Below, piece after piece: positions 24,408-26,920 of a DNA stretch of 64,000 bases. The DNA lies in assembly GCA_945865295.1 (NCBI GenBank), contig CAMBDE010000001.1, positions 1-64,000 of the forward strand. The letters run 5' to 3'. The position numbers and the translations under genes were made by a program. The notes below the pieces were generated by a model. That model saw nothing but the letters and a program-made list of their open reading frames with translations. It did no database searches and had not been told where the DNA came from. Each line of letters starts with the position of its first letter. Within the stretch, counting starts at the first letter, position 1. This DNA is from Chitinophaga pinensis. Its GTDB lineage: Bacteria > Bacteroidota > Bacteroidia > Chitinophagales > Chitinophagaceae.

Positions 24408-26108
24408 ATGATGGAAACAAAACAACTTACAGGATCAAAAGCATTACTAGAAGCATGTATTGCAGAAGGCGTAGATACCATATTTGGTTATCCGGGTGGA
24501 GCGATCATGCCTATTTATGATGCATTGTATGATTATACAGAAAAATTAAAGCATGTACTTGTAAGACATGAGCAAGGCGGGATTCATGCTGGACAAGGTT
24601 ATGCAAGAACATCGAGTAAAGTGGGTGTGGTGTTTGCAACAAGCGGACCAGGTGCAACCAATTTAGTGACTGGACTAGCAGATGCAATGATTGATAGCAC
24701 ACCATTGGTTTGTATTACTGGACAAGTGTTCGCACATTTATTAGGAACAGATGCATTTCAGGAAACAGATATCATCAATATCACGATGCCTGTGACAAAA
24801 TGGAATTATCAAATCACAGATGCGACAGAGATCCCACATATATTAGCCAAAGCTTTTTATTTAGCAAAAACTGGAAGACCAGGACCCGTATTAATTGATA
24901 TCACTAAGAATGCACAATTTCAATCCTTCGATTATCAAGGGTACACTGTGTGCAATCATGTAAGATCTTACCGACCAAAACCCATCATCCGAAAAGAATA
25001 TATCAATGAAGCAGTGCAACTTATTAATGAAGCAAAAAAACCATTGGTAATTTTTGGACAGGGTGTGATTTTAGGAAATGCAGAAAATGAGTTTAAGGAA
25101 TTTATAGAAAAATCTGGTATGCCAGCGGCATGGACCATTTTAGCATTGAGTGCAATGCCAACAGATCATCCGCAAAACGTAGGTATGCTTGGGATGCATG
25201 GCAACTATGGTCCAAATGTATTGACTAATGAATGTGATGTATTGATTGCAGTGGGGATGCGTTTTGACGATCGTGTGACAGGAAGATTGGATAAGTACGC
25301 GAAGCAAGCAAAAATTATTCATCTAGATATTGATCCATCCGAGATTGATAAAAATTTATTGGCCCATGTGGGTGTATGGGGTGACTGTAAAGAAACCCTA
25401 CCCTTATTAACTGAGGGCATCGAACAAAAAGATAGAAGCGAGTGGTTACAAGTTTTTGCTGGATATGCAAAAGAAGAATACGAGCAATGCATCAAAGACG
25501 AGATGCATCCTAGCAGTGAAGAAATGACGATGGCCGAAGTGATTCATGCGGTGAATGAAATTACAAAAGGAGATGCCGTGATGGTGACCGACGTGGGACA
25601 ACATCAGATGGTGACTTGTAGGTATGCAAAATTTAATCAAACAAGAAGCAATGTGACATCGGGTGGATTGGGTACCATGGGATTTGGATTGCCAGCAGCC
25701 ATTGGTGCCAAGTTTGGCGCACCAGAAAGAACAGTCATTGCAGTCATTGGAGATGGCGGCATACAAATGACTTTACAAGAATTTGGTACCATCATGCAAA
25801 CGGGCATCAATGTGAAAGTGATGATTTTAAACAATCAATTTTTAGGGATGGTGCGTCAGTGGCAGCAATTGTTCATGGACAAGCGCTACAGTTTTGTGGA
25901 TATAGAAAGCCCTGATTATGTGATGCTCGCTAATTCCTATAAGATAGCAGCAGCAAAAGTTAGCAAGCGTGAAGACCTAGTGTCTGCAGTCACAAAGATG
26001 TTAGCACATCCAGGGTCTTATGTATTAGAGGTGATGGTGGGTAAGGAAAACAATGTATTCCCAATGGTACCACAGGGGTGCTCGGTCTCTGAAATCAGAT
26101 TGAAGTAA
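24408..26108 (+). CDS. ilvB: Acetolactate synthase large subunit
   Basis: FGYPGGAIMPIYDAL, VFATSGPGATNLVTGLADAMIDSTPLVCITGQV, ThDP region GDGGIQMTLQEFGT. Confidence 0.97.
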   Translation: MMETKQLTGSKALLEACIAEGVDTIFGYPGGAIMPIYDALYDYTEKLKHVLVRHEQGGIHAGQGYARTSSKVGVVFATSGPGATNLVTGLADAMIDSTPLVCITGQVFAHLLGTDAFQETDIINITMPVTKWNYQITDATEIPHILAKAFYLAKTGRPGPVLIDITKNAQFQSFDYQGYTVCNHVRSYRPKPIIRKEYINEAVQLINEAKKPLVIFGQGVILGNAENEFKEFIEKSGMPAAWTILALSAMPTDHPQNVGMLGMHGNYGPNVLTNECDVLIAVGMRFDDRVTGRLDKYAKQAKIIHLDIDPSEIDKNLLAHVGVWGDCKETLPLLTEGIEQKDRSEWLQVFAGYAKEEYEQCIKDEMHPSSEEMTMAEVIHAVNEITKGDAVMVTDVGQHQMVTCRYAKFNQTRSNVTSGGLGTMGFGLPAAIGAKFGAPERTVIAVIGDGGIQMTLQEFGTIMQTGINVKVMILNNQFLGMVRQWQQLFMDKRYSFVDIESPDYVMLANSYKIAAAKVSKREDLVSAVTKMLAHPGSYVLEVMVGKENNVFPMVPQGCSVSEIRLK

Positions 26109-26109
26109 A

Positions 26110-26180
26110 ATTCGACCGAATAAAATGAGGTCAAATATTATGACTACAACATTCGACCGAATAAAATGAGATCAAATATT
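26110..26180 (+). repeat. Two-copy 30-bp direct repeat between ilvB and ilvN
   Basis: ATTCGACCGAATAAAATGA(G/A)GTCAAATATT-type unit: ATTCGACCGAATAAAATGAGGTCAAATATT (26110-26139) and ATTCGACCGAATAAAATGAGATCAAATATT (26151-26180); one mismatch, offset 41 bp. Confidence 0.95.
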
Positions 26181-26196
26181 TTTATAAAGTAAAATT

Positions 26197-26793
26197 ATGG
26201 AAAACGAAAAACAAGAATTTACAATCACGGTGTATACCGAAAACCAAGTTGGTTTATTAAATCGTATTGCCATTATTTTTTCGAGAAGAAAAATAAATGT
26301 GGAGAGTTTAAATACCTCTCCTTCGGAAGTGCAAGGCATACACCGCTTTACCATCGTCGTGGTAGAGTCCAGAGATGTGGTGCTTAAAATTGTGCGACAA
26401 ATTGAAAAGCAGGTAGAAGTTTTAAAAGCCTACTATAATACCAACGATGAAATTGTATGGCAGGAATTGGCATTGTATAAAGTTTTATCGGATGAGATCA
26501 CAGAGAAAGTAAAAGTAGAAAGATTGTTGAGAGAGTTTGGCGCAAGAGCGGTGGCCATTAGAAAAGACTTTATTGTTTTTGAAACGACAGGGCATAGAGA
26601 GGAAACCAATAAATTAATGGAAGCATTGGTACCATTTGGTTTGGTAGAATTTGTAAGAAGCGCTAGAGTGGCCATTATTAAAGAAAGTGCAGGCTTTCAC
26701 GAAAAACTAAAAGACTTTGAAAAAAGAGAACCAGGAGACGAATTGGCAGAAAACGAATACTTAGGAAAAAGCGCGACAGTATTTACGATGTAA
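26197..26793 (+). CDS. ilvN: Acetolactate synthase small (regulatory, ACT) subunit
   Basis: EFTITVYTENQVGLLNRIAIIFSRRKINVESLNTSPSEVQGIHRFTIVV. Confidence 0.95.
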   Translation: MENEKQEFTITVYTENQVGLLNRIAIIFSRRKINVESLNTSPSEVQGIHRFTIVVVESRDVVLKIVRQIEKQVEVLKAYYNTNDEIVWQELALYKVLSDEITEKVKVERLLREFGARAVAIRKDFIVFETTGHREETNKLMEALVPFGLVEFVRSARVAIIKESAGFHEKLKDFEKREPGDELAENEYLGKSATVFTM

Positions 26794-26835
26794 AATTTTA
26801 AAAATTAATAAGCATTCATTAATGTATAAATGTAC

Positions 26836-26859
26836 AAACATATAAACATATAAACATAC
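26836..26859 (+). repeat. Three tandem 8-nt units in the ilvC leader
   Basis: AAACATAT AAACATAT AAACATAC within an AT-rich, G-depleted intergenic region. Confidence 0.7.
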
Positions 26860-26920
26860 AATTATACAAAAACACAAATAAATAAATAAACAAATATTCA
26901 ATTCATAAATTAAACAAATC

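Follow-up and report, generated by a model that had tools for sequence, protein, structure and literature searches.

In the cip-cel operon of Ruminiclostridium cellulolyticum, stem-loops in the gaps between genes were shown to direct cleavage and to set transcript stability and subunit stoichiometry (PMC10311766). REP elements of the GTAG and CGTC superfamilies (PMC3733652) are palindromes of 20-40 bp lying downstream of a gene, possibly in tandem, and hairpins created or mended by template switching (PMC8794818) show arms that change together between sister species and stay perfectly paired. The literature on ilvB-ilvN intergenic hairpins yielded only the uORF motif of Corynebacterium ilvB-II, which lies upstream, in a different place.

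The element described here occupies the gap between ilvB and ilvN, two branched-chain amino acid synthesis genes that encode the catalytic and regulatory subunits of acetolactate synthase, in a 64,000-nucleotide stretch of Chitinophagaceae DNA (hereafter the window). Like the cip-cel structures it consists of stem-loops in an operon gap, and it may work like other intercistronic stabilising or processing stem-loops, with no membership of a defined family claimed; unlike them, it uses the ilvB coding end and stop codon as a 5' arm, conserves tandem G.A mismatches and is frequently lost. It shares with REP elements a short palindrome downstream of a gene, possibly in tandem; unlike them, it is found at a single locus per genome, in fixed orientation, and in genomes in which no RAYT transposase was found. 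Assignment to the REP elements was rejected, as the window genome has two copies at one locus in place of a high interspersed copy number, and the RAYT (Y1) transposase domain PF01797 is missing from 16/16 bearing genomes, which are drafts, so that this absence is not absolute. Concerted arm changes between sister species are shared with template-switch hairpins; unlike those, the ilvB-ilvN element keeps its tandem G.A, and the bias among its wobble pairs suggests that one strand is under selection. Among the structured RNAs of Rfam, the whole window matched no family at the gathering threshold, and this gap and that of the relative L070 gave no significant match, only chance matches of the miRNA/lncRNA level; the element is absent from Rfam at threshold.

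The doubled unit of the window

Two copies of a 30-mer fill most of the 88 bp between the ilvB stop and the ilvN start codon (Table 1). As described in the first-pass annotation, they form a near-perfect direct repeat, identical at 29/30 positions with starts 41 bp apart (94% in a 33-nt register). This is the best 30-mer direct match of the window at offsets of 10-100, the runner-up reaching 23/30, and 20 first-order Markov resamples of the window gave best matches of 21-23/30. The short dyads previously noted, TTCG-AC-CGAA and TGA-GG/GA-TCA, are present, and both are parts of one 19-nt hairpin (H2), GACC-GA-AT-AAA-AT-GA-GGTC, which was overlooked, as was the 10-bp direct repeat bracketing the insert. 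The outer ATT/AAT pairing of copy 1 spans a C.A mismatch, and its 30-mer is identical to the sole copy of the relative L036; in copy 2 a single G>A substitution leaves C.A where the stem had a C-G pair. The local fold of the 111-nt stretch is modestly better than that of shuffled sequences (z -1.59, 16/200), compared with z -4.86 for L070.

The tiny ORF reported earlier does exist, and is a by-product of the duplication. Farther downstream, the gap between ilvN and ilvC holds an 8-bp satellite, AAATATAC, in about nine copies (26828-26901).

Table 1. Features in and around the ilvB-ilvN gap, in window coordinates
Feature	Position	Strand	Remarks
ilvB	24408-26108		
ilvB end, GAAATCAGATTGAAGTAA (E-I-R-L-K-stop)	26091-26108	+	5' arm of hairpin H1 in 11 relatives; 3' arm missing in the window
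Flanking direct repeat, left, 10 bp, AAGTAAAATT	26103-26112	+	
H2 copy 1	26110-26139	+	Core GACCGAATAAAATGAGGTC at 26114-26132; 49.9 bits (covariance model R1)
14-codon ORF, MRSNIMTTTFDRIK	26125-26169	+	Created by the duplication; no 14-codon ORF in single-copy relatives
Spacer between copies, 11 nt, ATGACTACAAC	26140-26150	+	New; none seen in the relatives read
H2 copy 2 (duplicate)	26151-26180	+	Core at 26155-26173; 45.9 bits (covariance model R1)
8-codon ORF	26166-26192	+	ATG overlaps TGA of the 14-codon ORF (ATGA); ends 4 nt before ilvN
Flanking direct repeat, right, 10 bp, AAGTAAAATT	26187-26196	+	Adjoins the ilvN start codon
ilvN	26197-26793		

Occurrence among relatives

A search of the window genome (a 2.0 Mb draft in 101 contigs) for the 30-mer with up to three mismatches returned only the two known copies, and the unit is therefore not an interspersed repeat, a possibility that had been raised before; the remainder of the window likewise gave no R1 match. 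The window genome falls within a clade of Sediminibacterium-like Chitinophagaceae that have small genomes and include many freshwater metagenome-assembled genomes. Across the 49 distinct ilvB-ilvN junctions read from this clade, window included, the unit is present in 16, always in the same gap and orientation. It is usually single (14 genomes); the window has two copies and L070 has two in an independent tandem of 57-bp period. The earlier suggestion of a recent local duplication holds for the doubling, which among the genomes read is specific to the window genome (L036 and L037 have a single copy and near-identical flanks), and that of an RNA element holds for the single unit, a covarying hairpin at the same spot in relatives. 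The other 33/49 close relatives lack the unit, some of them being sisters at a few percent divergence, and the shortest element-free gap measures 4 nt (L038).

When covariance model R1 was run across 147 genomes of the genus, strong matches fell in the ilvB-ilvN gap, except for two matches of 33 bits (G131:C154, L191; G017:C116, L122) and weaker ones. The matches L122, L189 and L191 resemble glycosyltransferase-like coding sequence by eye and were treated as noise, and additional low-scoring matches fall on a second family of tandem-GA hairpins. No credible copy was found at any other locus of the 16 bearing genomes. An order-wide scan of 399 sampled genomes (the window's own included) under strict filters matched the window genome alone, and two scans of viral contigs gave no match, on which a phage source was rejected.

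The second tandem-GA repeat, AAAGGAWGACCGA-N-GAGGTCNATCC, was observed at G000:C34:6362-6392 on the minus strand (L172) and at L173-L179. A strong terminator directly follows its 1-3 copies, which lie at about 51 bp; its GA/GA strand is antisense to the upstream gene, and its strict pattern matches 10/147 genomes of the genus. In Niastella, Longitalea and other Chitinophagaceae (L075-L079, L081, L085, L088 and others), the ilvB-ilvN gap extends to 500-900 nt or more, so that another gene may lie between the subunit genes.

Hairpin structure, strand and turnover

Across relatives, H2 follows a constant layout of GACC, GA, inner stem, loop, inner stem, GA and GGTC, in which the letters of the stems vary. 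The outer stem appears as GACC/GGTC, GAGC/GCTC or AACC/GGTT, which are covarying Watson-Crick pairs, and the inner stem as AT/AT, AC/GT, GTC/GAC, GTCT/AGAC or GTCC/GGAC. The opposed GA dinucleotides, which form two G.A mismatches, persist throughout the first alignment (A1), in 16/16 copies of H2; outside that alignment, L009 has AA opposite GA. No general surplus of GA/GA hairpins was found in the window genome (9 in 470 kb, against a mean of 6.6 over all mismatch types). An intrinsic terminator was rejected from the sequence, as AAATATT-type sequence, and no U run, comes directly after the core stem.

In 11 relatives a further hairpin, H1, is formed by the final ilvB codons and stop pairing with sequence just before H2, so that the stop lies at the hairpin tip or close to it. 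Examples are AATCAGACTCAA-GTAGCGAAGCTT-TTGAGTCTGATT in L070, AATAAGACTTAAAT-AGCGAAGC-ATTTAAGTCTTATT in L048 and GATAAGATTGAAAT-AGT-ATTTCAATCTTATC in L064, the last being a perfect 14-bp stem with a 3-nt loop; in L065 the partner is a duplicated copy of the last ilvB codons. The encoded EIRLK end is constant, and synonymous codon changes are matched in the H1 3' arm. H1 arms pair better with their own partners than with swapped ones (4/100,000 permutations; 16/40,320 when restricted to distinct arms), and a perfect stem of at least 10 bp around the stop occurs at 5/49 ilvB ends compared with 0/246 ORFs that were 250 codons or longer and came from sampled parts of the window genome. A third hairpin, TTTTAAC-GAA-GTTAAAA, was seen by eye downstream of H2 in L009, L014, L064 and L188, which have long gaps.

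In the joint alignment of H1 and H2, 93.6% of the cells of 24 pairs are paired, and two-sided changes affect 10 pairs (25 cells), giving a covariation score reached by 0/500 shuffles. Slid registers gave 0-2 two-sided pairs, a control that somewhat favours the proposed structure because this was drawn from the same sequences. A secondary structure conserved through compensatory changes, with placement and direction fixed relative to a gene, is what is expected of a structured cis-acting RNA, and the persistence of the fold while its letters change suggests that the hairpin matters as RNA. Wobble pairs read on the mRNA strand comprise 10 G.U and 0 A.C, partly shared by descent and amounting by our own count to about seven separate changes, and 16/16 mismatched cells are purine-purine; folding of the opposite strand would be expected to leave A.C and pyrimidine-pyrimidine mismatches instead. 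This asymmetry speaks for selection acting on the mRNA. Sequence comparison among the junctions shows where and in which orientation the element lies, as well as its covariation and its strand asymmetry.

Presence of the element requires 13 changes on the ilvB+ilvN tree, as often as with shuffled labels (mean 14), which together with its lack in 33/49 junctions indicates that it is dispensable. Elements do not resemble each other in step with their genes (rho 0.08): sister pairs carry different element types (L064/L188, with genes 93% identical, and L010/L048, 91%, both over the ilvB and ilvN stretches), and near-identical elements are shared by more distant species. Between L064 and L188, the H1/H2 block differs within otherwise near-identical flanks. 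Direct repeats surround the element, AAGTAAAATT in the case of the window and AAGTAG in that of L070; the element-free L038 has a single AAGTAAAATT and resembles a join there, and L106 resembles a join at AAGTAG. Labile presence, type swaps and joins together indicate that the block was often lost, swapped and perhaps regained. The flanking repeats fit target duplication and deletion by slippage alike.

In the window, the H1 3' arm has been lost, H2 has been tandemly duplicated and a stem pair of copy 2 is broken. Given these changes and the modest fold, the doubled form is read as a partly decayed element and not as a tandem regulatory site, and the element of the window is probably weak or redundant.

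Candidate role and competing explanations

The reading favoured here, at a probability of roughly 0.55, is that the ilvB-ilvN junction carries an intercistronic hairpin element with a candidate function on the operon mRNA. Its full form would consist of two adjacent hairpins, H1 at the ilvB end with the stop near its tip, followed by H2 with the tandem G.A. A distance of about 20 nt nearly abolishes termination-reinitiation coupling in Escherichia coli and Haloferax (PMC10666635), which makes direct coupling unlikely across a gap of 88 nt, and stem-loops in the gaps of another operon direct processing and set stoichiometry (PMC10311766). We therefore infer that the most likely role is that of a processing or stability barrier at the ilvB 3' end, which would also uncouple the translation of ilvB from that of ilvN; barrier and separation together could set the ratio of catalytic to regulatory subunits. 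An improbable elaboration is an RNA switch embedded around the stop codon, in which ilvB translation would choose between two folds controlling ilvN output. The ribosome ending ilvB would open H1 and free its 3' arm TGATTC, which could instead lengthen H2 through GATT/AATC pairing; ilvB translation, and hence amino-acid supply, would decide the fold, and the ilvB coding end would co-evolve through synonymous codons.

The main rival to an mRNA element, which we consider possible and clearly less probable, is a dispensable palindrome kept paired by mutation, its arms being rewritten by template switching or short-tract interspecies recombination and its flanking repeats allowing deletion. Template switching is able to create and maintain hairpins (PMC8794818), and the perfect 14-bp H1 of L064, set against the other H1/H2 type of its sister L188 between near-identical flanks, is in keeping with this; the labile presence, the independence of element and gene identity and the joins at AAGTAAAATT and AAGTAG agree with it as well. 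Such mending would, however, perfect the stem and erase the tandem G.A mismatches, so that their persistence argues against pure template switching, neutral decay predicts equal numbers of G.U and A.C pairs where 10 and 0 were observed (about seven events, not all independent), and confinement to one gap is left unexplained. Insertion of a REP/MITE-like mobile palindrome behind ilvB is strongly disfavoured. In its favour, a short palindrome follows a stop codon, copies can stand in tandem, direct repeats flank the element, presence is patchy, and in several relatives the Lys codon and stop form GTAG, but the 16 bearing genomes have no credible copy at another locus, the Y1 transposase was not found in the window genome or the 15 other bearing drafts, viral contigs gave no match, and H1 takes its 5' arm from the coding region of ilvB.

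Two further explanations concern the mini-ORFs and the doubled dyads. It is very unlikely that the mini-ORFs act as a reinitiation relay handing ribosomes from ilvB to ilvN: their ATGA overlap and the stop 4 nt before the ilvN ATG are suggestive, and the 8-codon ORF beside ilvN can also be read at the same place in L036 and L037, but GAGC-type elements do not conserve the arrangement, there would be no 14-codon ORF without the duplication, and the first start lies 16 nt past the ilvB stop. A tandem regulator site had been among the earlier suggestions, and the two closely similar dyad units, spaced by about four helical turns, speak for it, but an operator of this kind, bound for example by an Lrp-type protein, is hardly credible. 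That phasing is not conserved, the sole other doubled case (L070) having its own 57-bp period and most relatives a single unit; the inner stem and loop length vary, the unit lies inside the operon and was found nowhere else in the window or the genome, and the strand asymmetry of mismatches and wobble pairs agrees with folding of the mRNA.

The ilvB-ilvN junction offers a natural test case of how hairpins in RNA come into being, keep their pairing and disappear. It is a useful system in that one arm is coding and free to change only synonymously, sister species that differ by a few percent occur with and without the element, and selection on mRNA structure and template switching predict different outcomes. 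If functional, the element would represent post-transcriptional control of the balance between the catalytic and regulatory subunits of acetolactate synthase in freshwater bacteria.
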